Positions 3,731 to 30,101 of a stretch of DNA of 64,000 nucleotides are shown piece after piece. The DNA is from an uncultured Alphaproteobacteria bacterium (GTDB taxonomy: Bacteria; Pseudomonadota; Alphaproteobacteria; RF32; CAG-239). Position numbers and translations under genes: made by a program. Below the pieces are notes generated by a model. It had not been told where the DNA came from, searched no databases, and saw nothing but the letters and a program-made list of their open reading frames with translations. Location: the NCBI GenBank assembly GCA_944391615.1, contig CALXUE010000002.1, positions 62,001 through 126,000 of the forward strand. Reading direction: 5' to 3'. The first letter of the stretch is position 1; each line of letters opens with the position of its first letter.

Positions 3731-4666
3731 ATGCAGTCAAAATACATAAAACAAGCCTTTGTTCTTTTTATATTTTCACTTTTGGCGGCTATCGGAACGT
3801 ATGTGATAAACGAGCAAAAACAGCCGGAAAACATTCAAGGCGAACGCGTGTTTAAAACAAATACACAAAACGCAGCCACCATAGAACTGCGCGCTCCAAA
3901 CTTTAAAATAACCCTAGATAAAATAGACAATCTCTGGAGCATACGCGAAGCCGATTCTTATTACGCGGATTATGAAATAGTCAAAAGTTTAGAAGACTTT
4001 ATCAATAAAGCAAAAATATTAAAAAAAGCCCCAATAAACAAAGCTGAAGAAAAGCATCGCTACCAAAACGGCCTTGAGATTAACATCTACAATGCCAATC
4101 AAGAAAAACAAGACAGCATCATCTTGAGTCTGCAAGAAAAAATAGCCAATAACATATCCGCCAAAATTCAGGGAAAAACCGGAAACTTTATCATAGAAAT
4201 GCCAAGAGTTTTACCTTTGAATATAAAGAATTGGCTTCAGCAACCCCTTCTGAATATTAAAACAGAAGATATAGAAAAGATATCAATTAATAACCTAAGC
4301 GCTACCCGCCGACAGGGAGAAGACTTTTTCAGAACCGATAATGGTAAATTATATAGCATTCGCAACATTGAAAAAATTTTAAATTATTTACCATTTGAAG
4401 ATGTCAAATCGGCCCAAAATTTTGATGAAACGCAATATACAGCATTGAAAACTTACAAAATCACCACGAAATCAGGCCTGATTTATGATTTGACACTATA
4501 CGGCAAGAATTCCGAAATTTGGTTAAAAGAAAAAATTAGCACGACAACTCTTCCAACCACGCAAACCAGTGATTATATAAAGAGGAACGAATTTTTATAT
4601 AACTATTGGTACTTCAAACTACCGCCCGAATTAGGCAGCAGCTTGATACGCGAGAGGCTGGAATAA
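3731..4666 (+). CDS. DUF4340 membrane-anchored protein
   Basis: A 311-residue protein with an N-terminal anchor (about residues 8-25) and a periplasmic body of repeated beta-rich modules of the DUF4340 type, including 'FKITLDKIDNLWSI' and later 'YKITTKSGLIYDLTLYG'. It starts on the base after the GldG-like stop codon, so the two are probably translated together. DUF4340 genes regularly follow GldG-like genes in Proteobacteria and are taken to be an accessory envelope part of the same exporter. No catalytic motif is visible and its role is unknown. Confidence 0.75.
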   Translation: MQSKYIKQAFVLFIFSLLAAIGTYVINEQKQPENIQGERVFKTNTQNAATIELRAPNFKITLDKIDNLWSIREADSYYADYEIVKSLEDFINKAKILKKAPINKAEEKHRYQNGLEINIYNANQEKQDSIILSLQEKIANNISAKIQGKTGNFIIEMPRVLPLNIKNWLQQPLLNIKTEDIEKISINNLSATRRQGEDFFRTDNGKLYSIRNIEKILNYLPFEDVKSAQNFDETQYTALKTYKITTKSGLIYDLTLYGKNSEIWLKEKISTTTLPTTQTSDYIKRNEFLYNYWYFKLPPELGSSLIRERLE

Positions 4667-19807: not shown

Positions 19808-20155
19808 ATGATTTCACGCTTTCAAACTTATGTTTTAACAACATTTTTTGTATTATTTTTATTAGCCTTGTCATACATGTATAACATAACGCCTGTTCTC
19901 GATTATGCCGAAAGCGTTTATTATAATGCCCAAAACATATATATATTAATACCAGCACTTATCAGCACGATAGTATTAATGAAACAAGGGGGATACTGGC
20001 TGTTTATGTTTATCTGCGCCTTAGCTGATTCATTTTACATCTGCTATGATATGGGAGTAGGGATGAGCAATATGAGTTTTTTCATCTTAAACATTGTCAC
20101 CTTTTTAGGAATAGCCTTTTTGATTAATACCGTAATCGCCTTAATAAAAGGATAA
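19808..20155 (+). CDS. Small membrane protein of unknown function
   Basis: A 115-residue protein with three or four hydrophobic helices (about 8-26, 43-60, 64-80 and 90-110) and almost no polar loops. The start has AGAGGTAAGG upstream. No family is recognised. It is the last chromosomal gene before the dif region. Confidence 0.6.
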   Translation: MISRFQTYVLTTFFVLFLLALSYMYNITPVLDYAESVYYNAQNIYILIPALISTIVLMKQGGYWLFMFICALADSFYICYDMGVGMSNMSFFILNIVTFLGIAFLINTVIALIKG

Positions 20156-20210
20156 GAGAGAAAAGAGCACTTTCAGTAATTTTAAGAGGCTTAAGATTAA
20201 AATTCGAGTT

Positions 20211-20240
20211 GCCGGAAACTTACGTTTCCGGTATTTTTTT
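20211..20240 (+). terminator. Terminator before the dif region
   Basis: GCCGGAAAC / GTTTCCGGT stem with a four-base loop, followed by eight T within ATTTTTTTT. Confidence 0.88.
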
Positions 20241-20671
20241 TGCCTAAAATCAATAACAAATCAGCCTCAAAGAAAAGTAAAAGCATTTAGATAAAACAAA
20301 CACAAAACATAGACAAAACACACAGTTTCAATAAACAAACCATAGACAAAAACAACACATAAATAAAATTATTCAGTAAAATCAATAGAATATAGATATT
20401 GAAATAAAAACAAAGAGCAGGGTGAAGATAAAAAAACTTAAAAATGATTAAAATAAAATTATTCAATGAACATAACATAAGACAAAGCCAAGATAATGAG
20501 CAATTAGCAAATCAGCCTGTTTACTGAGGAATATTTATTTCTAGACTTCATAAGTTCTATGGATACTTAAAACATACATATTTTATATAAGGAGAATATC
20601 AGTGCCGCATACATAAAATGCCAATATTTTATAGAAGAACTCTATTATATATGCAGGAATCTTTGTAACAA
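20241..20671. other. Gene-free AT-rich stretch left of dif
   Basis: No convincing gene on either strand. A 63-codon minus-strand frame at 20287-20478 is low-complexity and has no ribosome site. Two short direct repeats occur: TAAAATTATTCA (near 20363 and 20452) and CATAGACAAAA (near 20309 and 20341). The stretch may be decayed insertions, since dif sites are frequent integration targets; this is inference. Confidence 0.5.
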
Positions 20672-20804
20672 TTATTTTCTTATAAATCATATATTCTATA
20701 ACACTTATATTCTTATAACTCAAATTTTCAATATTGCATATTTTTAATAACACACATTATCTTATGACTAGTAATTTCATAACAACACCTATATTCAAAT
20801 CCAT
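20672..20804. repeat. Degenerate ~33-bp tandem repeat next to dif
   Basis: Four consecutive segments of 33-34 bp (20672-20704, 20705-20737, 20738-20770, 20771-20804) align as imperfect copies. The first two agree at most positions around 'TTCTTATAA' and 'TTC'. The later two are weaker. AT-richness could inflate the similarity. Confidence 0.35.
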
Positions 20805-20895
20805 ACAAAACACATACGTTTATCATGAAGCATACATACGGCTACTTTGGAACATAAAAATGCCTATATTTTTCCCCTCTTCTCCATAACACGTT

Positions 20896-20923
20896 TTGTC
20901 GCATAATATATATTCAGAGGCTA
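20896..20923. other. Left prophage junction (dif-derived attL)
   Basis: The chromosomal XerC arm TTGTCGCATAA and central TATATA of dif are present here, but the XerD arm is replaced by phage sequence TTCAGAGGCTA. The 18 bases 20897-20914 are identical to 27406-27423 at the right junction, marking the recombination core. Confidence 0.9.
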
Positions 20924-21234
20924 TATCATCAACAGCCAGAAAACAAGACAAAGCAATACGACTACTTGACAAAATAATAAATAAATATTTCAAAATATTT
21001 GAATTAATACAAAACGAAAAAACAAAATCAAGACAAGCACTAATACACAACAATAAGAACCTAAAAAGTCTATTAATATACAGACTTGTAACAAAATACT
21101 ACTTACGCGAAAGATACGGAACGATTAATCCGACAGAACTTTCAAACCTCAAAGAAAAAACACACAAAAAAATAAAAAATATAATGTCCGAAATCGGGCA
21201 AAACATAAAAAAAATAAACGAAATCAAAATCTAA
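20896..21234 (+). CDS. Phage protein of unknown function, split from its start signals by integration
   Basis: A 112-residue Lys-rich, helical protein (about one residue in six is Lys) with no recognised family. In the prophage its first codon is a chromosomal TTG preceded by a pyrimidine-rich stretch with no ribosome site. In the circular phage the same frame would start with ATG at 27405 behind 'AAAGGG'. Residues 2-6 (SHNIY) are encoded by the att core itself. The charge suggests nucleic-acid binding, but that is only a guess. It precedes VP5 by 21 bases and would be the first gene of the phage operon. Confidence 0.65.
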   Translation: MSHNIYSEAISSTARKQDKAIRLLDKIINKYFKIFELIQNEKTKSRQALIHNNKNLKSLLIYRLVTKYYLRERYGTINPTELSNLKEKTHKKIKNIMSEIGQNIKKINEIKI

Positions 21235-21255
21235 TTAATTAAAGGAGTAAAAAAA

Positions 21256-21552
21256 ATGGAAAATTCAGCTAACAAAACAGAAAAATCAAAAGTTGTAAAT
21301 AAAATGAGATTTTACGCGATATTTGACAAGAAAAGCGAAAAATTTTTCACACCAAACGTAAAACCAAACAATGCATGCGCTTTGCGTGACTTAGAAAGTT
21401 TCTGCAAAAGCAAAAACAGCATAATCGGACAATTTCCGAAAGATTTTTCAATGTATTATCTCGGATATATTGACGAAGACAATGGGGAAATGTTCGGAGA
21501 AAAACAATTAATAGGAGAGGCACAAGACTATGTCGAAATCGAAAACAACTAA
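21256..21552 (+). CDS. Microvirus non-structural protein VP5
   Basis: A 98-residue protein with the VP5/ORF5 pattern of gokushoviruses: an N-terminal 'MRFYAIFDKKSEKFFTP', a central 'NACALRDLESF', then 'FPKDFSMYYLGYIDEDNG' and 'IGEAQDYVE'. VP5 is thought to bind single-stranded DNA and regulate the switch to strand synthesis or packaging. The ribosome site AAAGGAG is strong. Its 3' end overlaps a small ORF in another frame. Confidence 0.8.
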   Translation: MENSANKTEKSKVVNKMRFYAIFDKKSEKFFTPNVKPNNACALRDLESFCKSKNSIIGQFPKDFSMYYLGYIDEDNGEMFGEKQLIGEAQDYVEIENN

Positions 21553-21631
21553 TTTACTCAATGAAATAGTAAAATATTTAGGTTGGGTAATCGTCGCAGT
21601 GCAAGAACTTGTAAAAGTAATTGCAGAATAA
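21530..21631 (+). CDS. Small overlapping ORF with a hydrophobic segment
   Basis: A 33-residue frame overlapping the last 23 bases of VP5 in a different frame, behind AGGAGAGG. It has a charged start (MSKSK) and a hydrophobic or amphipathic part from about residue 9 to the end (YLGWVIVAVQELVKVIA). Size and position recall the small lysis peptides of microviruses, but no homology is recognised and the helix is short of a clear membrane span. A terminator-like hairpin follows directly, which supports a real gene end. Confidence 0.4.
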   Translation: MSKSKTTNLLNEIVKYLGWVIVAVQELVKVIAE

Positions 21632-21637
21632 AAAAAA

Positions 21638-21665
21638 AGGGCGTGATTTTTCACGCCTTAATTTT
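21638..21665 (+). terminator. Terminator-like hairpin inside the phage operon
   Basis: GGCGTGA / TCACGCC stem with a four-base T loop, extended by one G-T and A-T pairs, followed by TTAATTTT. The T-run is interrupted, so it may only partly terminate and could adjust the ratio of early to capsid transcripts. Confidence 0.6.
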
Positions 21666-21689
21666 AATAACAAGAAAGGAAAGGAAAAA

Positions 21690-21836
21690 ATGTCATGCAA
21701 AACTTTAGTAGAACAGCCATTAAAACAAAAAAAATCAATGTCAGACCGAAAGTCTCTTTCGGCGGGAAAAGATTTTAAGATATTAAAAAAAATCAAAATA
21801 CCTACTTTATACATCAATTTCGAAAGGTTAGGATAA
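21690..21836 (+). CDS. Small basic phage protein
   Basis: A 48-residue frame starting at an ATG behind AAGGAAAGG. About a quarter of residues are Lys or Arg. Its stop codon overlaps the VP3 start (TAATG), suggesting coupled translation. It could be a DNA-condensing, J-like packaging protein as in other microviruses, but that is inference from charge and size. Confidence 0.5.
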   Translation: MSCKTLVEQPLKQKKSMSDRKSLSAGKDFKILKKIKIPTLYINFERLG

Positions 21837-22300
21837 TGAAAATTGAAAATACAACTTATGATAGAACTAAAAAAACGCCGTTTAACGGTTGGAATAAAAT
21901 TAACAAATGTTGCATCACTTATGATGACAATTCTAAAATTCGTAGAAATGGCAAAGAAATAAGTCTTCAAGAATTTATAAATGCAAATAACCAAGACTGC
22001 ACAATTTACCAAGTATATGACAAATACATGGGAAATATGAAATTGACACAACAAGCACTTTGCAACATTTCGCATAAAGTAGCAGACGAATTGTCAGGAA
22101 TGGACTTGGCAACAGCATTGAATACGATGAACAAAGCTGAACAAGCTTGGAATAATTTACCACAAGCAATTAAACAAGAATTTGGAAACAGTGTCCAAGC
22201 GTTCCAAAAAAACGGTTTACAATGGGCAAAAAATAAAATTGCAGAATTTAACAAACCGAAACAAAAAGTTACTGAAGAAAAAAAAGAAAATAAGGAGTAA
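21836..22300 (+). CDS. Microvirus internal scaffolding protein VP3
   Basis: A 154-residue protein. The C-terminal half carries the VP3 pattern 'LATALNTMNKAEQAWNNLP' and 'IKQEFGNSVQAF' (about 97-130), comparable to the 'YQEALNIV.AEEQF..LP' region of gokushovirus scaffolds. A Lys/Glu-rich tail follows. VP3 guides capsid assembly and is absent from the mature particle. It lies directly before VP1, the standard order. Confidence 0.82.
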   Translation: MKIENTTYDRTKKTPFNGWNKINKCCITYDDNSKIRRNGKEISLQEFINANNQDCTIYQVYDKYMGNMKLTQQALCNISHKVADELSGMDLATALNTMNKAEQAWNNLPQAIKQEFGNSVQAFQKNGLQWAKNKIAEFNKPKQKVTEEKKENKE

Positions 22301-22306
22301 TACACA

Positions 22307-23995
22307 ATGGCAAGAAACGAAGAAATCTCAGTTTATGGAATACCAGAAGTATACAAAAACCGCTATAATCACCAATATACATGTCGGAGAAAAACAACCT
22401 TCAACATAGGCGATATCGTACCGATTTATACCTCTATTTTGGTACAACCGGGAGATACAATCTCACTCAATGCACGTTCATTCTTTAGATTGACGACCTC
22501 ACTATTTCCGCCTATGGACAATTTAACCGCGGACATATTCTGTTTTGCAGAAGATTGGCAAAATGTTTGGGAACACACAAAGGAATTCTGGGGAGAAGAT
22601 GAAGCAACACCATTTGATGAATTACCAGAATACACCGTGCCACAAATAGAAATAACGCCAACAGATGAAATTTTGCATAATGATATTTTGCATCACATAT
22701 CATTACCACAAATGAAAGCAGACGAAGCCGCAATTCCTGAAATAACTCGCGTAAATAACATATCCGTAGAAGCTTTATCATATAGAACGTATATAGATAT
22801 TTATAATAGATTTTTCCGAGACCAAAACTATATAACAAAATATGACCTTGAAACAGGAGATACACAAACAAAACCCGAAAATGGAACATGGGCAGGCAAA
22901 AAAAGAGCAAGAACTCTTTTAAAAGCGGCCAGATTGCACGACTATTTCTCAGGAACACCAGAAGCTCAAAAAGGTGACCCAGAAACATTGCCTCTTGGAA
23001 CAAGCGCACCAATCATAGGAACAGGGACAATCATAGGAAACGGAAAACCAGTAACTTGGACAAATGCTGACGGGACAAGTTCGACTAATATTGCAACCGC
23101 GGCCTCAGGTGACGGGGAATTAAGACTAGCACCGTCATCCGGCTTGATTTCAACTATGTACGCTCCAACAGACGCAGCAGACGCATACTTAAAACTTGAT
23201 ATGACGAACACTCAAGTTGACCTTGCGAATGCAGTCGCGAGTACCTTAAACGCTCTAAGGCTTGTAACAGCCAACCAGCACATTAAAGAAGAGTTAATGT
23301 GGTACGGCTCACGATTTGAAGAAATCATCTTTAGCCAATGGGGCGTTAGCATGGACGCGACCTCATTCCGTATTCCTGAATATCTTGGCGGAAAACGTAT
23401 TTCTTTAAATATGGACACTGTTTTACAGACATCAAGCACAGACGCCGAAAGCCCACAAGGTAACGCGGCAGGATATTCCGTGACTTTTGATGAAGACCAT
23501 CTATTCACAAAATCATTTAAAACATGGCAAATTTTGATGATTTTAGTAGTGGTAAGACAAGACCACACATACTCATATGGCGTAGCAAATCAACACCTTA
23601 AAAAACGCAAATTTGACTTTTATTGGGATAAATTTGACGGATTAGGCGCACAGCCAAGAAGTAAAGCCGAACTTGCATTAACTGGAACAGATTCCGATAA
23701 TGACACTTGGAACTTTGCGCCAGCTTGGAGAGAATACATCTCAGAAGTTGACCGCGCAACGGGTTTAATGGTGCCAGGGGTAGAAAACAGCCTTGCAAAC
23801 TACACCTATAACGATGAATACACCAGTGTACCAAACTCAGGCGAAGAATGGATTAATGAAATTCCGAACTATGTCGACCGTACCTTGGTTGTACCATCAT
23901 CAACAACAGACCAAATTATGGCTGATTTTGTTTTTGAAATCAACAAAACATCTATTATCAAAAATTACAAATTGCCAGGATTGGACAAGCTCTAA
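22307..23995 (+). CDS. Microvirus major capsid protein VP1
   Basis: A 562-residue jelly-roll capsid protein. The N-terminal 'CRRKTTFNIGDIVPIYTS' and 'VQPGDTISLNARSFFRLTT' are the classic gokushovirus MCP start, followed by 'FPPMDNLTADIFCF'. The region about 210-280 (Gly/Thr/Ala-rich) probably forms the surface protrusion typical of gokushoviruses. Length is normal for the subfamily. Ribosome site AAGGAG; the stop overlaps the next ATG. Confidence 0.95.
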   Translation: MARNEEISVYGIPEVYKNRYNHQYTCRRKTTFNIGDIVPIYTSILVQPGDTISLNARSFFRLTTSLFPPMDNLTADIFCFAEDWQNVWEHTKEFWGEDEATPFDELPEYTVPQIEITPTDEILHNDILHHISLPQMKADEAAIPEITRVNNISVEALSYRTYIDIYNRFFRDQNYITKYDLETGDTQTKPENGTWAGKKRARTLLKAARLHDYFSGTPEAQKGDPETLPLGTSAPIIGTGTIIGNGKPVTWTNADGTSSTNIATAASGDGELRLAPSSGLISTMYAPTDAADAYLKLDMTNTQVDLANAVASTLNALRLVTANQHIKEELMWYGSRFEEIIFSQWGVSMDATSFRIPEYLGGKRISLNMDTVLQTSSTDAESPQGNAAGYSVTFDEDHLFTKSFKTWQILMILVVVRQDHTYSYGVANQHLKKRKFDFYWDKFDGLGAQPRSKAELALTGTDSDNDTWNFAPAWREYISEVDRATGLMVPGVENSLANYTYNDEYTSVPNSGEEWINEIPNYVDRTLVVPSSTTDQIMADFVFEINKTSIIKNYKLPGLDKL

Positions 23996-24267
23996 TGGCT
24001 GAAAGTTTGGATTTATACATAGCCGAAATTGATGAGTTGGCGGGAAAAGTCCAAGCAGACTTGGTGCGTGCAGTAGACAACTATTGCACGCTTTACCAAG
24101 CAATGCAAGACATTAAACCAACTGTCAAAAAAGAAAAACCGAACTATGACAAAGAAATCATAAAAAAGCTACAAAATGCAAGCTATTCGGACAATTTGTT
24201 TAATAAAAAAATTCTTAAAAAGAAAGGGTTGAAAAAATGGGATTATTTAGCTCTATTGGCGGAATAA
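23995..24267 (+). CDS. Phage protein of unknown function between VP1 and VP2
   Basis: A 90-residue helical protein with an acidic N-terminal half and a Lys-rich C-terminal half. Its ATG shares a base with the VP1 stop (TAATG) and its 3' end overlaps VP2 by 31 bases, so it is probably translated by coupling. No family recognised; an additional frame at this position is uncommon in gokushoviruses. Confidence 0.6.
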   Translation: MAESLDLYIAEIDELAGKVQADLVRAVDNYCTLYQAMQDIKPTVKKEKPNYDKEIIKKLQNASYSDNLFNKKILKKKGLKKWDYLALLAE

Positions 24268-24902
24268 TTAACGATTTGACAGGCGTATCATCAAGTGCAA
24301 ATCAAGGTTTTAAATATTCACAAGCTTTATCAAACCTCAATTTCGAACAACAAAAATATTTTGCACAAAATGCACACCAAATGGAAATGGCAGACCTCCA
24401 AAAAGCAGGACTCAACCCTGCATTAACCGCAACCGGTGGTTCAGGTGCTTCCGCAAGCGGGGGAGGAGGCATAGCCGGAAATGGTGGATCGCCAACGGCG
24501 AACATATTCGGTATTATGTCAGAATTAGCAGGAGTATTTAACGCAACTAAACAAACCAATGCAAACACCGAGCTACAAGGCGCACAAGCAATTAAAACGC
24601 TTGCAGAAACAAAAAATCTACCTCAAGAGCTTAAAAATGACACTATGCGAGCACTTGCCGACAAAATGAACGCCGAAACAGGCGCAACAAATGCAAAGAC
24701 AAACCAATGGAACGCATGGAACAACGAATATAACAATATGACTAATAGATTGCAATATCTACTTGATGAAAAACGCGCAAATGCTGGAAAACTCGGCGAA
24801 TGGGTAGGAGCTGAAAACGCATCTAAAGTAACACGCGGAAAATATTCATTACCGAGAATGTTTTTCGACCTTCTATTCGATGGGCAAATTCCAAAATTTT
24901 AA
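24237..24902 (+). CDS. Microvirus DNA pilot protein VP2
   Basis: A 221-residue minor spike/pilot protein. The hallmark 'HQMEMADLQKAGLNPAL' near residue 46 is followed by a Gly/Ser/Ala-rich stretch (about 66-85) and a long helical part (about 100-190), as in VP2 of chlamydia- and enterophages. VP2 conducts the genome through the host envelope during entry. Ribosome site AAAGGG. The last 109 codons lie inside the 720-bp duplication, which leaves this copy whole and creates a truncated second copy. Confidence 0.92.
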   Translation: MGLFSSIGGIINDLTGVSSSANQGFKYSQALSNLNFEQQKYFAQNAHQMEMADLQKAGLNPALTATGGSGASASGGGGIAGNGGSPTANIFGIMSELAGVFNATKQTNANTELQGAQAIKTLAETKNLPQELKNDTMRALADKMNAETGATNAKTNQWNAWNNEYNNMTNRLQYLLDEKRANAGKLGEWVGAENASKVTRGKYSLPRMFFDLLFDGQIPKF

Positions 24903-24945
24903 AACACAAACAAAAATTAATTGAATTAATAAAATAAAAAGAAAA

Positions 24946-25077
24946 ATGCAAAAAGGAATAAAACAGCGAGCCAAAAAATTGCCAATAGTCCAATTAAAAC
25001 CGCGTGAAATATCTTTTTTGTTAAACATGTCAAAACCTCAGTCAATAGGAGTTAAAAGTAATGTACGGAGCAAATAA
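24946..25077 (+). CDS. Possible small basic phage ORF, copy 1
   Basis: A 43-residue frame, strongly basic (about 11 Lys/Arg), overlapping the next small ORF by 17 bases in another frame. Its ribosome site (AAAAGAAAA) is weak. Repeated exactly at 25666-25797. Confidence 0.3.
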   Translation: MQKGIKQRAKKLPIVQLKPREISFLLNMSKPQSIGVKSNVRSK

Positions 25078-25216
25078 TAACACAAATAATTTATACGGTC
25101 AAGACAATGGATTTGATAGAATTAAAAGCGGAATTAATAACGCAAAATCTATTAAATCGGGCTATGACAAAATCAATGACATAGCTAAATCAATATTAGC
25201 AATGATTGCAGGTTAA
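25061..25216 (+). CDS. Small phage ORF (51 residues), copy 1
   Basis: A 51-residue frame behind TAGGAG, with an Asn/Gly-rich start (MYGANNNTNN) and a helical end (DIAKSILAMIAG). No family recognised. It is followed by a hairpin at 25251-25277 (ACACCGAT / ATCGGTGT). Repeated at 25781-25936. Confidence 0.45.
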   Translation: MYGANNNTNNLYGQDNGFDRIKSGINNAKSIKSGYDKINDIAKSILAMIAG

Positions 25217-25292
25217 AAAAATGACCCAAAAGGACAGGGTATAAGCTTATACACCGATATTTTTAATTAATCGGTGTCACTGGGCGGTATAG

Positions 25293-25622
25293 TATCAAGG
25301 CGCACAAGCAATTAAAACGCTTGCAGAAACAAAAAATCTACCTCAAGAGCTTAAAAATGACACTATGCGAGCACTTGCCGACAAAATGAACGCCGAAACA
25401 GGCGCAACAAATGCAAAGACAAACCAATGGAACGCATGGAACAACGAATATAACAATATGACTAATAGATTGCAATATCTACTTGATGAAAAACGCGCAA
25501 ATGCTGGAAAACTCGGCGAATGGGTAGGAGCTGAAAACGCATCTAAAGTAACACGCGGAAAATATTCATTACCGAGAATGTTTTTCGACCTTCTATTCGA
25601 TGGGCAAATTCCAAAATTTTAA
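25293..25622 (+). pseudogene. Truncated VP2 copy created by the duplication
   Basis: The last 109 codons of VP2 in frame, preceded immediately by an in-frame TAG at 25290-25292 from the upstream copy. It lacks the membrane-interacting N-terminus and the 'AGLNP' motif. An internal ATG at 25365 could give an 85-residue C-terminal fragment, but no good ribosome site precedes it. Confidence 0.85.
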
Positions 25623-25665
25623 AACACAAACAAAAATTAATTGAATTAATAAAATAAAAAGAAAA

Positions 25666-25797
25666 ATGCAAAAAGGAATAAAACAGCGAGCCAAAAAATT
25701 GCCAATAGTCCAATTAAAACCGCGTGAAATATCTTTTTTGTTAAACATGTCAAAACCTCAGTCAATAGGAGTTAAAAGTAATGTACGGAGCAAATAA
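25666..25797 (+). CDS. Possible small basic phage ORF, copy 2
   Basis: Identical to the 43-residue frame at 24946-25077, inside the second copy of the duplication. Same weak start signal. Confidence 0.3.
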   Translation: MQKGIKQRAKKLPIVQLKPREISFLLNMSKPQSIGVKSNVRSK

Positions 25798-25936
25798 TAA
25801 CACAAATAATTTATACGGTCAAGACAATGGATTTGATAGAATTAAAAGCGGAATTAATAACGCAAAATCTATTAAATCGGGCTATGACAAAATCAATGAC
25901 ATAGCTAAATCAATATTAGCAATGATTGCAGGTTAA
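25781..25936 (+). CDS. Small phage ORF (51 residues), copy 2
   Basis: Identical to 25061-25216. This copy is the one followed by the intact double hairpin (25971-25997 and 26000-26043). Confidence 0.45.
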   Translation: MYGANNNTNNLYGQDNGFDRIKSGINNAKSIKSGYDKINDIAKSILAMIAG

Positions 25937-25999
25937 AAAAATGACCCAAAAGGACAGGGTATAAGCTTATACACCGATATTTTTAATTAATCGGTGTCA

Positions 26000-26043
26000 C
26001 TGGGCGGTATAGTATCAAGTAGACCAACCGCCCAGTTTTTTTT
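26000..26043 (+). terminator. Terminator between capsid genes and VP4
   Basis: CTGGGCGGT (26000-26008) pairs with ACCGCCCAG (26027-26035), followed by eight T. A second hairpin, 25971-25997, stands just before it. In copy 1 of the duplication (25280-25288) only the left arm survives. Confidence 0.92.
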
Positions 26044-26080
26044 CCTAAAAAAAAATCCAAAAAAAGAGCAGGGGGCGCAA

Positions 26081-27208
26081 ATGGTTTGTTTATGTCCTAA
26101 AGTCGCATACCAAAGGAAATTTTATCCAATAGACGGCAATATATCCGAAAGAAACTTAAAAAGATTAAATAAAATATCATTTCAATATCACAGAGGTTGG
26201 AAACAAATATTAATTCCATGCGGAGAATGTCCAGCGTGCAAACTTGCAAAAGCTAACGAATGGGCTGTCAGAATTAACAACGAAGCAGAAACATGGAAAA
26301 ATAAAGGAATTTTTGTCACCTTAACTTATAATACACCAAATTTGCCACTTACAAAAGACGGATTAATGACCCTACAAAAAAGGGACATGCAACTATTCAA
26401 GAAAAGATTAAGAAAATACATATCGAAACATAACGAGGGAATAACCGAATGGATTAATCCCAAAAACGGAAAAATTGAAAAACCGATTCGAACTTTCGAA
26501 TGTGGAGAATATGGGCCGACAAAAGGAAGACCACATTATCACCAAATCATATTTAACTGGATACCAAACGACCTAGTCGAGAAAGAAATATCAAAAGACG
26601 GATATCCACTTTATAAATCAAAAACACTACAAAAAATATGGGGCAAAGGCTTTGTTTTGATAGGAATGATAAGCTTTGAAAGTGCCAGCTATGTTGCAAG
26701 ATATACCATGAAAAAAGCAGGACTTGCAAAAACAAAACGTGTCTATTATGACGCTTGCGAATACAATGAAGAAACCAAAAATTTTGAAATGAAAACAAAA
26801 TACAAAACAGAAAAGGGGGAGATAGAACCAGAATTTATAACGATGTCAACATCGCCAGGGATTGGATATTGCTATTTTATAAAAAATCAAGAAAGTATTA
26901 TAAAAAACAATGGGTTATTGATAAAAGTTAAAGGAAAAGTAAAATTAAAATCAATACCACGATATTATAGAAAAATCATGGAACGCCAAAACTGGAAAAA
27001 ATACGAAAAATGGAAATACGAAAACCAAAAACAAGCAGACGAAAAACAAAAAAAACTTGTCAACAGCTACAAACTGCCAGAAGAAATGATTTTCGAATTA
27101 AAAGTGCAATTTGTAAACAATATTTTTCTTGACACAATTAGAAATAAATTTAACTTATTGAAAAGAAACAATATTTTATATGACGAAGAAACAAAAGAAG
27201 ATGAATAA
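26081..27208 (+). CDS. Microvirus replication initiator VP4
   Basis: A 375-residue HUH endonuclease that nicks the positive-strand origin for rolling-circle replication. Seen: a Cys cluster 'CGECPAC' near 47-53; motif 'FVTLTYN' near 78; the HUH motif 'RPHYHQIIF' near 150; and two candidate catalytic tyrosines four residues apart in 'YVARYTMKK' (about 204 and 208), as in the phiX174 A protein. I chose the ATG at 26081, behind AGGGGG; a longer reading from 25994 would start inside the terminator hairpin. The C-terminus is Lys-rich. Confidence 0.93.
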   Translation: MVCLCPKVAYQRKFYPIDGNISERNLKRLNKISFQYHRGWKQILIPCGECPACKLAKANEWAVRINNEAETWKNKGIFVTLTYNTPNLPLTKDGLMTLQKRDMQLFKKRLRKYISKHNEGITEWINPKNGKIEKPIRTFECGEYGPTKGRPHYHQIIFNWIPNDLVEKEISKDGYPLYKSKTLQKIWGKGFVLIGMISFESASYVARYTMKKAGLAKTKRVYYDACEYNEETKNFEMKTKYKTEKGEIEPEFITMSTSPGIGYCYFIKNQESIIKNNGLLIKVKGKVKLKSIPRYYRKIMERQNWKKYEKWKYENQKQADEKQKKLVNSYKLPEEMIFELKVQFVNNIFLDTIRNKFNLLKRNNILYDEETKEDE

Positions 27209-27214
27209 TTGATT

Positions 27215-27270
27215 AAGTTATACACAATCGCTACAGCGCATTGTGAGGTGCGCGCTCATGTGCATAACTT
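27215..27270 (+). other. Nested stem-loop after VP4
   Basis: AAGTTATACACA (27215-27226) pairs with TGTGCATAACTT (27259-27270) with one G-T wobble; inside it AGCGCA and TGCGC(G)CT form a second stem. A run of A follows, and no T-run on the coding strand, so it is not a standard plus-strand terminator. Candidates are a replication origin element or a minus-strand terminator. Confidence 0.6.
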
Positions 27271-27292
27271 AAAAAAAAAATAATTTTATATA

Positions 27293-27332
27293 TTGACAAC
27301 AAAAAAAATTTGTGATTCCGTATAATCACGGA
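27293..27332 (+). promoter_or_regulatory. Phage promoter overlapping two palindromes
   Basis: TTGACA at 27293-27298 and TATAAT at 27321-27326 are consensus-quality but 22 bases apart, longer than the usual 17. The -10 box lies within GTGATT-N6-AATCAC (27312-27329) and within TCCGT-N6-ACGGA (27317-27332), which look like operator half-sites. In the circular phage this promoter points into the first ORF. In the prophage it points out of the element. Confidence 0.6.
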
Positions 27333-27361
27333 CAAGGTGAATTTGCTCTTTTTCACCTTGT
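27332..27361 (+). promoter_or_regulatory. Leader stem-loop before the phage first ORF
   Basis: ACAAGGTGA / TCACCTTGT perfect 9-bp stem with a 12-base loop, just downstream of the promoter and 43 bases before the ATG at 27405. No T-run, so more likely a transcript-stabilising or regulatory structure than a terminator. Confidence 0.6.
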
Positions 27362-27404
27362 CTATCATAAAGAGTTAACAAAAAGAGCAAAGAAAGGGCT
27401 AAAA

Positions 27405-27432
27405 ATGTCGCATAATATATATTATGTTAAAT
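27405..27432. other. dif: Chromosomal dif site / right prophage junction
   Basis: ATGTCGCATAA-TATATA-TTATGTTAAAT: XerC arm, 6-bp centre, XerD arm. The XerD arm equals that of E. coli dif, and GCATAA of the XerC arm is also conserved. dif marks the replication terminus region where XerCD resolves chromosome dimers. The left 19 bases come from the phage and the right 9 from the chromosome. Confidence 0.92.
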
Positions 27433-27486
27433 ATAACTGTTTTTAAGACACTAAAATAAGATAAAAAGAATATGTGTACAACAAAA
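27433..27486. other. Short chromosomal gap right of dif
   Basis: 54 bases between the dif site and the stop codon of yejF. No terminator hairpin is visible for yejF here. Confidence 0.5.
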
Positions 27487-29079
27487 CTATATTGCAGCTT
27501 TAATCAATTCTTGAGTATAAATATGCTGCGGCTTTTCAAAAAGCAACTTTGTCGGCTGACACTCAACAATTTTTCCTTGATTCAAAACAGCCACCCAATC
27601 AGACATAGCACGAACAACACGCATATCATGCGTAATAAAAATATAACTAAGCTGCTGTTCATTCTGAATACGTTTTAACAAGCTTAAAACCTGAGCTTGA
27701 GTCGTCACATCAAGCGCCGATGTCGGTTCATCCAAAATCAAAATTTTAGGTTTCAAAATTAAACTTCGTGCTATGGCAATCCTTTGCCGCTGTCCACCTG
27801 AAAATTCAAACGGATACTTATCTAGCACATCGGCATCTAACTCAACTGATTTCAAAATATCAATAACTTTACGTTTTTTTTCAGCCTTTCCCATTTCCGG
27901 AAAATGAACATTTAATCCTTCCGCAACAATCTGCTCGACAGTCATTCTAGGATTAAGCGACGTATAAGGATCTTGAAACACAATCTGCAAATTACGCCTA
28001 AACTGTTTATTATCAAAGCTTTCTGCAGACTTTTGCAATAATTTTATTTCTCCGCCAGCCTTAGGGTTAAGTTTGGCCAATGCAAACCCCAAAGTTGTCT
28101 TTCCTGAACCAGATTCTCCGACAATACCCAAACACTCACCTTGTTTTAATATCAAATCAACCCTATCCAACACCGAATGATAAGTCAAAACCCTTCCCCA
28201 AAAATTCTTCTTTTCCGGATACTTAACAGTAATATTTTTTCCTTCTAAAACAATAGGTTGATTATCATTTTGCAACAAGTTACTCTTTTTTTCATCAAGT
28301 TTCACCGCTTTCAAAAGAGATTGAGTGTAGCTTTGTTTTGGCGCATTAAAAATTTGTTCAACTCCGCCCTGCTCTACGATTTGCCCATTTTTCATCACAC
28401 ACACACGGTGGGCAATTTTTCCGACCAAGTTCAAATCATGGCTGATAAACAAAATCGCCATACCCATTTTTTGCTGTAATTTCAATAACAAATCAATAAT
28501 TTGTTTTTGCACGGTAACATCCAAAGCCGTTGTTGGTTCATCAGCAATCAATAACTTCGGCCGATTTGCGATTGCCATGGCAATCATAACACGTTGCCTT
28601 TGACCTCCGGACAACTCATAAGGATAAGCCTTAAATTTTTGTTTAGCTTGTTTAATTCCCGTTGCATTCAAAAGGCGTATTGCCTCACGGACAGCTTGTT
28701 TTTCCGTCATTTTTTGATGTAATTGTATAGCTTCGACAATTTGTTGCCCAACTCTATGTAACGGGTTAAGAGAAGACATCGGTTCTTGAAAAATAAAAGC
28801 CACATCCCCACCCCGCATTTTCTGTAATTGAGCATCATTCATAGTCATAATATTTTGATTTTCAAACAAAATTTCAGATTTATTTTGATAATCAGCCCCT
28901 TCGACTAATTTCAAAACAGACAAAGCCGAAACCGACTTACCAGAACCTGACTCACCCACCAACCCTAAAATTTCACCGTTTTGAATGGCAAAATTAACAT
29001 CATGAACAACCGTTTGACCATTAAAAGAAATTGTCAAATGCCTGACATCAAGCAAAATATTATCTTTAATATCCGCCAT
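27487..29079 (-). CDS. yejF: Peptide ABC transporter with two fused ATPase domains (YejF-like)
   Basis: A 530-residue protein with two ABC ATPase domains in one chain: Walker A 'GLVGESGSGKS' near 36 and 'GIVGESGSGKT' near 315; signatures 'LSGGQRQR' and 'FSGGQRQR'; Walker B 'LLIADEPTTALD' and 'ILILDEPTSALD'. This is the YejF layout of the YejABEF oligopeptide importer (microcin C and defensin-related peptides in other bacteria). The start is ATG at 29079, sharing a base with the yejE stop (TGATG) behind AAGGAGG. YejA and YejB are not in this window. Confidence 0.9.
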   Translation of the reverse strand: MADIKDNILLDVRHLTISFNGQTVVHDVNFAIQNGEILGLVGESGSGKSVSALSVLKLVEGADYQNKSEILFENQNIMTMNDAQLQKMRGGDVAFIFQEPMSSLNPLHRVGQQIVEAIQLHQKMTEKQAVREAIRLLNATGIKQAKQKFKAYPYELSGGQRQRVMIAMAIANRPKLLIADEPTTALDVTVQKQIIDLLLKLQQKMGMAILFISHDLNLVGKIAHRVCVMKNGQIVEQGGVEQIFNAPKQSYTQSLLKAVKLDEKKSNLLQNDNQPIVLEGKNITVKYPEKKNFWGRVLTYHSVLDRVDLILKQGECLGIVGESGSGKTTLGFALAKLNPKAGGEIKLLQKSAESFDNKQFRRNLQIVFQDPYTSLNPRMTVEQIVAEGLNVHFPEMGKAEKKRKVIDILKSVELDADVLDKYPFEFSGGQRQRIAIARSLILKPKILILDEPTSALDVTTQAQVLSLLKRIQNEQQLSYIFITHDMRVVRAMSDWVAVLNQGKIVECQPTKLLFEKPQHIYTQELIKAAI

Positions 29080-30101
29080 CAACGCCTCCTTCTCGGATTA
29101 AAAGCATCACGAACACCTTCACCGATAAAAATAAGCAATGTCAATAACATAGACAATACAATAAAAATCGTAATTCCAATCCAAGGCGCCTGTAAATTAT
29201 CTTTGCCTTGCCGCACCAAATCCCCCAAGGAAGGATAATCAGCCGACAACCCCAATCCCAAAAAATCCAAAGCACTTAACGCCACAATTGCATCAGAAAG
29301 CAAAAACGGCACATAAGTAATCGTTGCCACAACTGCATTAGGCAAAATATGCTTAAAAATAATTTTAACATTGCTAACACCTAAAGCCTTTGCCGCTTTA
29401 ACAAACTCAAAATTACGCGTACGCAAAAACTCTGCACGAACCACCGGAATCAAAGCACTCCACGAAAATAACAGCATAATAAACAATAAAGTCATAAAAC
29501 TAGGAACAAACACACTTGCAACAATTATCAATATAAAAAGCTGAGGTAAAGCATCCCAAATTTCCAAGAACCTCTGCACAAACAAATCAATTTTTCCACC
29601 AAAATATCCTTGCACTGCGCCAATAACAATTCCGATAACTGAGGCAAAAAAAGTCAACACAACCGAAAAAACAACCGAAAGTCTAATTCCATAAAGGATA
29701 CGCGCCACAATGTCCCGCCCCTCATCATCAGTTCCCAACCAATGTTGAGCTGAAGGCGGCGTCGGAGTTGGTTTATCCAAATCATAATCAACAGAGTTAA
29801 AAGAATATGGAATAACAGGCATCACCATCCAACCGTTTTGCATAATTTTTTGCACAATAAATGGATCTTTATAATCAGCCTCAGTAGCAAAATCTCCGTC
29901 AAAATACTCATCCGTATATGTTTGAATAAACGGAAATAAAATCTCTCCTTTATATTTCACAACCAGAGGCTTGTCATTGGCAATAATCTCAGCCAAAAAG
30001 GACAACAAAAAAATACCAAGAAACAGCACCAACGACCAATAAGCGCGCCGATTTGCCTTAAAATTCTGCCATCGTCTTTGGTTTATCTTAGATAAAAACA
30101 T
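29079..30101 (-). CDS. yejE: Peptide ABC transporter permease (YejE-like)
   Basis: A 340-residue permease with an N-terminal helix, the periplasmic insertion 'WLGTDDEGRDIVARILYG' typical of the DppC/YejE group, five further helices and the coupling 'EAA' motif 'AKALGVSNVKIIFKHILPN' near 240. The long periplasmic loop (about 50-115) with 'YDLDKPTPTPPS' is YejE-like. Ribosome site AGGGTGG. The preceding gene ends 6 bases upstream but is not yejB, so the expected partner permease must be encoded elsewhere. Confidence 0.88.
   Translation of the reverse strand: MFLSKINQRRWQNFKANRRAYWSLVLFLGIFLLSFLAEIIANDKPLVVKYKGEILFPFIQTYTDEYFDGDFATEADYKDPFIVQKIMQNGWMVMPVIPYSFNSVDYDLDKPTPTPPSAQHWLGTDDEGRDIVARILYGIRLSVVFSVVLTFFASVIGIVIGAVQGYFGGKIDLFVQRFLEIWDALPQLFILIIVASVFVPSFMTLLFIMLLFSWSALIPVVRAEFLRTRNFEFVKAAKALGVSNVKIIFKHILPNAVVATITYVPFLLSDAIVALSALDFLGLGLSADYPSLGDLVRQGKDNLQAPWIGITIFIVLSMLLTLLIFIGEGVRDAFNPRRRR

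Follow-up and report, generated by a model that had tools for sequence, protein, structure and literature searches.

The window analysed here, a 64,000-nucleotide stretch of contig CALXUE010000002.1 from an uncultured alphaproteobacterium of the gut (GenBank assembly GCA_944391615.1), contains a gokushovirus prophage (positions 20897–27423) that is inserted in the host dif site and in which the attachment (att) site lies between a candidate leader promoter and the phage genes. The features of the prophage and the neighbouring host terminator described below are on the forward (+) strand. An 18-bp core, TGTCGCATAATATATATT, is present in exact copies at both ends of the prophage. In attL (20897–20914), the host XerC arm and the dif centre are joined to a degenerate phage XerD arm, TTCAGAGGCTA; in attR (27406–27432, with the core at 27406–27423), the phage XerC arm and the host XerD arm together form a perfect host dif. 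This intact dif, TGTCGCATAATATATATTATGTTAAAT, occurs only once in the host genome, at attR, and among the genomes of the host family, 32 of 82 contain a dif match with at most 3 mismatches, one per genome. At a locus from the same genus (L020), dif is unoccupied, and the two flanks of the window align to either side of it, collinear up to dif. Because the intact dif is single-copy and the empty site has collinear flanks, the insertion is a genuine one. No integrase was found among the prophage open reading frames (ORFs), either in the ORF list or in family searches of the prophage proteins. Integration at dif, the lack of a recombinase of its own and the regeneration of dif at one end place this phage among the Xer-exploiting integrative elements (IMEX). 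We infer from the junctions that XerC and XerD are the agents of both integration and excision, a role that has been demonstrated for the Escherichia coli gokushovirus EC6098 (PMC7062461).

The phage was identified by matches to PF20577, PF09675, PF02305 and PF23343, and its gene complement, a Phage_F VP1, a Chlamydia-phage-type VP3 scaffold, a VP2 pilot, a VP4 replication initiator (Rep) and VP5, is that of the Gokushovirinae (Microviridae); VP1 is about 49% identical to that of the nearest circular genomes. The gene order is ORF1-VP5-VP3-VP1-VP2-VP4. The orphan first ORF is followed by genes for a VP5-like nonstructural DNA-binding protein (21256–21552; PF20577, phrog_1670), the VP3 internal scaffolding protein (21836–22300; PF09675), the VP1 major capsid protein (MCP) (22307–23995; PF02305, E=4e-86), the VP2 DNA pilot protein (24237–24902; phrog_8693) and VP4 (26081–27208, with ATG at 26081; PF23343, phrog_942). 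A terminator-like hairpin (21640–21657) is located 3' of VP5, as it is in several relatives, and a strong intrinsic terminator (25999–26036; a 10-bp stem followed by T7) precedes VP4. An exact tandem duplication with a period of 720 bp (24576–26019; 24576–25299 is repeated at 25296–26019) spans the 3' part of VP2, a 51-amino-acid ORF and half of the pre-VP4 terminator, and expands the phage from 5789 to 6509 bp, compared with 5.6–5.9 kb in relatives. The duplication may be a real mutation or an assembly fault, and the copy is perhaps unpackageable. Together with the fragmentation of the assembly into 32 contigs, it could be taken to mean that the prophage is decaying or mis-assembled and that its present layout says little about regulation. 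We consider this very improbable because VP1, VP2, VP3, VP4 and VP5 are all intact and match their families, with the first VP2 copy complete, and because each junction is an exact Xer product, with the empty site as a control.

Integration carries the promoter, the leader and the ribosome-binding site (RBS) to the right end of the prophage, where they face the chromosome, and leaves the genes at the left end, preceded by half a dif site and a host terminator. This terminator (20210–20233; a stem followed by T8), located 3' of the upstream host gene, would stop read-through from the host into the prophage and so insulate that side. On the other side, the stranded leader promoter region (27293–27446) faces the 3' end of a convergent gene for an ABC-transporter ATPase (27487–29082); a 13-codon remnant ORF, MSHNIYYVKYNCF (27405–27446), remains 3' of the leader, and in lysogens, the stranded promoter could yield antisense RNA and a 13-residue peptide.

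The cut falls inside the first ORF. At the circle junction, where 27423 is joined to 20915, the ORF opens with ATG TCG CAT AAT ATA TAT T, the core supplying codons 1–6. In the circular form, this ORF encodes 112 amino acids and is preceded by AAAGAAAGGG at 27389–27398, with six nucleotides before the ATG at 27405 (RBS and start codon, 27389–27407); homologous RBSs are present in the related phages L003–L005 and L165. In the prophage form (20896–21234, likewise 112 amino acids), the ORF begins with a TTG (20896) that belongs to the conserved start of the host dif (the printed empty-site dif sites of the host family all have TTGTCGCATAAT) and is preceded by host CCCTCTTCTCCATAACACGTT, without a Shine-Dalgarno sequence. 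An earlier sequence-only reading of this DNA had proposed that the att core encodes codons 1–6 of the first phage ORF, that in the prophage, this ORF starts on a chromosomal TTG without a ribosome site, and that joining 27423 to 20915 restores a normal start; the core copies, the host sequence around the TTG and the circle junction bear out all three points. The ORF is likely to be coding: the chance of it staying open is about 0.0002, and its codon score is 2.3 standard deviations over shuffles. It has no homologue at E<1 among 50,697 phage records, and neither these records nor the family searches yielded a repressor match. Homology to the first ORFs of relatives was considered and rejected, with only the dif-encoded SHN(I/V)Y in common and z at most 3.0.

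The best candidate for the leader promoter is TTGACA-17-TTCCGT with a TG extended -10 (27293–27321), a position that is conserved in relatives, many of which have TTCGAT at the same 17-bp spacing, also preceded by TG. The sequence-only reading had located a promoter at 27293–27326, at the end of the prophage opposite to the genes. The location in the leader holds, whereas the TATAAT assigned as the -10 was rejected: its 22-bp spacer to TTGACA does not suit sigma70, and it lies within a conserved palindrome, GTGATT-N6-AATCAC (27312–27329), which is partly retained in L003–L005 and might be an operator or origin element; the candidate given above also scores better. A script comparison of 14 related phages revealed, in the post-Rep leader, a common succession of TTGACA or a variant, 22–23 nt, CACGG, an 8–11-bp hairpin, CTATCA, a complement of the hairpin loop and the RBS. 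The 22–23-nt distance from TTGACA or TTGCAA to CACGG is constant even though the relatives have otherwise strongly diverged. In the window, this element (27327–27391) contains a loop (27342–27351) that pairs with 27382–27391, forming a predicted pseudoknot. Complementarity between the loop and the downstream segment was detected in 13 of the 14 leaders (combined p 4e-11, with the phages treated as independent although they are not fully so), and the loops covary with their complements (GCTCTTT, GCCTTT, TGTCC, GACCCTTT, ACGTCC, TGCCTGTG, TCCTCTT and GTGCTTTC). This covariation is good evidence that the gokushovirus leaders (L003–L007, L161–L167) carry a conserved pseudoknot; Rfam gave no meaningful match within window positions 20000–28500.

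This block might instead be, chiefly, a replication element (a Rep nick site, a second-strand origin or a fold of the single-stranded DNA (ssDNA)), such that integration would part an origin, rather than a promoter, from the genes. An inverted pair of DnaA-box-like 9-mers (TTATACACA / TGTGCATAA) forms a hairpin directly 3' of VP4, just upstream of the leader (27218–27267), and is a probable complementary-strand (second-strand) origin; in L188–L190, tandem TGTGGATAA copies take the place of the inverted 9-mers. The palindrome and the CACGG-hairpin-CTATCA array also resemble an origin, and the -10 hexamer of the window is poor. However, TTGACA, the 17-bp spacer and the hexamer are conserved, and CACGG would form the 5' end of a transcript initiated about 7 nt 3' of the -10; the + strand stem contains G-T pairs in several phages, as expected of RNA; and in EC6098, which lacks the CACGG block, a canonical promoter occupies the corresponding place. 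A primarily replicative role is, on balance, improbable.

Comparison with other dif-bearing microviruses, drawn from a phage collection, shows a like placement of dif relative to the predicted promoter and the genes. Relatives were sought elsewhere as well: scans of IMG/VR with VP1 and VP4 retrieved none, nor did a search of genome contigs with a VP1 profile, and no VP1 relative was found among the dif-pattern loci from IMG/VR. PF02305 had just one further match in 153 genomes of the host order and 385 of the class, in genome G440; this locus (L009, G440:C77), the sole other Phage_F match in the 385 class genomes, is a microvirus gene in a different family of the same class. Among the 18 dif-bearing gokushoviruses that we tabulated, which were picked from dif hits, represent only about 6–8 lineages and are not phylogenetically independent, dif is located 3' of the leader in 18 of 18, either 5' of the first or second ORF or inside it. 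The strongest support for placing the main promoter directly 5' of the recombination site comes from 11 of the 18, in which the best sigma70-like site anywhere on the + strand falls in the 50–380-nt gap directly 5' of dif, a gap that makes up about 1–7% of the genome; in the window phage, the leader site ranks second. Among the listed records of MCP-first microviruses of 5.4–5.95 kb with a dif match, dif is at 3963–4361 in 22 of 22, that is, in or just 3' of the post-Rep leader.

The exact position of dif within this region varies. The sequence-only reading had suggested looking for att sites inside the first ORF of other dif-integrated microviruses, and these exist in L162–L164, where the dif core encodes an ORF N-terminus in the same frame as in the window (LSHNVY vs MSHNIY), but not in the nearest relatives, L003–L005, where dif lies outside any ORF, directly 5' of the RBS of one; an att site within an ORF was, therefore, rejected as an essential feature. 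In L188–L190 and L193–L197, dif is located between the TTGACA boxes and the first ATG. The constant feature, judging from this comparison, is that att parts the leader promoter from the main run of genes, the position inside an ORF being incidental. With respect to dif itself, we observed inverted repeats (CTACTTTAAGAA...TTCTTAAAGTAG) on both sides of the phage site in L004 (~4250–4310) and L005 (~4190–4260), which would place dif in a single-strand hairpin loop; the dif of L005 is a near-perfect XerC-XerC palindrome.

Such a distribution could also arise if the stretch between the leader and the first gene were merely the least constrained region of the genome, so that the severing of the promoter is an unselected by-product of where dif can be tolerated, and the prophage is either silent for another reason or leaky. 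Indeed, this region holds orphan ORFs and is the most variable among relatives, the orientation of dif and its exact position differ between lineages, and two dif-bearing microviruses, L191 and L192, use other gaps, with dif 5' of VP1 or before VP3. Nevertheless, the non-coding gaps between VP5 and VP3 and between VP2 and VP4 are used in 0 of the 22 listed records, and within the leader gap, 0 of 18 phages have dif 5' of the promoter (although these are only about 6–8 lineages). We regard the by-product scenario as rather unlikely.

The same arrangement can be seen in a temperate phage for which integration is experimentally established. Integration of EC6098 by XerC/XerD has been proven in E. 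coli K-12, and this phage excises continually (PMC7062461). In EC6098, dif occupies positions 1–28, a predicted promoter, TTGACA-18-TATGAT, is found at 4475 and ends about 20 nt before dif, and the Shine-Dalgarno sequence and ATG (63) of VP4 are 3' of dif, which thus parts them from the promoter. In the finished chromosome of E. coli C41, which carries a related prophage, the left end consists of the host dif followed by VP4 and the right end contains the promoter (5361, score 13.6); the best site in the 300 nt 5' of VP4 scores only 6.7. The sequence-only reading had proposed that the leader promoter, RBS and start are cut off by integration and regained on excision; as to the layout, this was right, and the layout recurs in relatives and in the finished genome of an E. 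coli lysogen. Significantly more phage is released by carriers in which EC6098 exists only as a circle than by lysogens (PMC7062461); this difference fits promoter separation and could also stem from copy number. In the text of PMC7062461, 'promoter' occurs once, whereas 'repressor' and 'transcri' do not occur, so promoter separation is apparently not discussed there.

Taken together, these observations make it fairly probable that this Xer-integrated gokushovirus, with att between the leader promoter and the coding run, maintains lysogeny without a repressor, its integrated genes being poorly expressed until excision reconnects them with the promoter. Under this scenario, the first ORF and the genes from VP5 onward would be poorly transcribed and translated in the lysogen, which would make a repressor unnecessary, and XerC/XerD excision would rejoin promoter and genes, so that phage expression and replication begin. 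In the window phage, the att site inside the ORF would add a translational cut to the transcriptional one. Silence in the lysogen without a repressor and the switch-on by excision are both read from sequence layout.

Several observations weigh against this interpretation, in addition to the deviant dif locations in L191 and L192. The leader promoter of the window has a poor -10 hexamer and, by itself, scores no better than shuffled sequence; TTCCGT was counted as weak because intergenic TTGAC boxes of the host prefer TAnnnT at 17 bp (15% of the intergenic boxes vs 2% of those inside genes). An internal candidate, TCGCCA-17-TATTAT at 24489, scores equally, so a weak internal promoter may exist, and the 650-bp AT-rich host flank could carry one, too. 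The sequence-only reading had placed a single promoter before the whole VP5-VP3-VP1-VP2-VP4 run, which is wrong or doubtful because the terminator-like hairpins 3' of VP5 and 5' of VP4 interrupt it; VP3-VP1-VP2 and VP4 therefore need read-through or other promoters, and promoters besides that of the leader may be required. In L162 and L163, the first small ORF remains with the promoter. Only 3 of the 11 positions of the phage XerD arm agree with the dif consensus, so excision may be inefficient. Finally, EC6098 lysogens continue to shed phage through continual excision (PMC7062461).

The severing of a promoter offers a simple mechanism, visible in the sequence, by which microviruses that lack both a repressor and an integrase could keep lysogeny. 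More tentatively, it is possible that the dif-using gokushoviruses as a group govern lysogeny by recombination alone, with the Xer site maintained so as to part the main promoter from the operon and no repressor involved. If true, promoter severing would account for the published observation that lysogens release less phage than circular-only carriers and would tie the lysis-lysogeny decision directly to XerCD/FtsK activity at chromosome segregation, linking induction to the machinery of chromosome-dimer resolution. The analysis also yielded the conserved leader pseudoknot, which has no Rfam match in the window.

The closest known systems are the gokushovirus prophages of E. coli that are integrated at dif, EC6098 among them (PMC7062461), which share with the window phage the gokushovirus genes, the lack of an integrase, integration at dif by host XerC/XerD (presumed for the window phage), a dif that overlaps the 5' end annotated for the first gene, and the separation of the promoter from the genes in the lysogen. 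In contrast to the window phage, where an orphan ORF precedes VP5, these phages have VP4 first, dif is reversed, and the leader with the CACGG pseudoknot is absent. The window phage also falls outside Enterogokushovirus, which is defined by the order VP4-VP5-VP3-VP1-VP2-VP8 after dif and an enterobacterial host; the host gene next to the prophage has its closest matches in alphaproteobacteria.

IMEX of the CTX-phi/VGJ-phi type, which are filamentous phages, likewise depend on XerC/XerD of the host and carry a dif-like site of their own in which the XerC arm is good and the XerD arm degenerate. CTX-phi relies on the RstR repressor. In mycobacteriophage BPs, attP is also located within an ORF, so that recombination alters the expression state; however, in BPs, att is in the repressor gene, and integration creates an active repressor (PMC4557955), whereas in the window phage, the att-bearing ORF is an orphan without a repressor match, integration removes the start of the ORF rather than its end, and a promoter is disconnected. 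A similar regulatory logic is that of Tn916, in which transcripts that cross the joined attachment site do not form until the element has excised and become circular (Celli and Trieu-Cuot 1998, cited in PMC6540685). Unlike the window phage, an ssDNA phage on which the host Xer recombinases would act, Tn916 is a conjugative transposon that encodes Int/Xis itself and is under antibiotic-responsive control; in both, the promoter (a predicted one in the window phage) and the gene run are at opposite ends in the integrated form and adjacent in the circle. By analogy, the window phage may work as a Xer-integrated counterpart of the circularization-dependent expression of Tn916, an arrangement that would be new among ssDNA phages.

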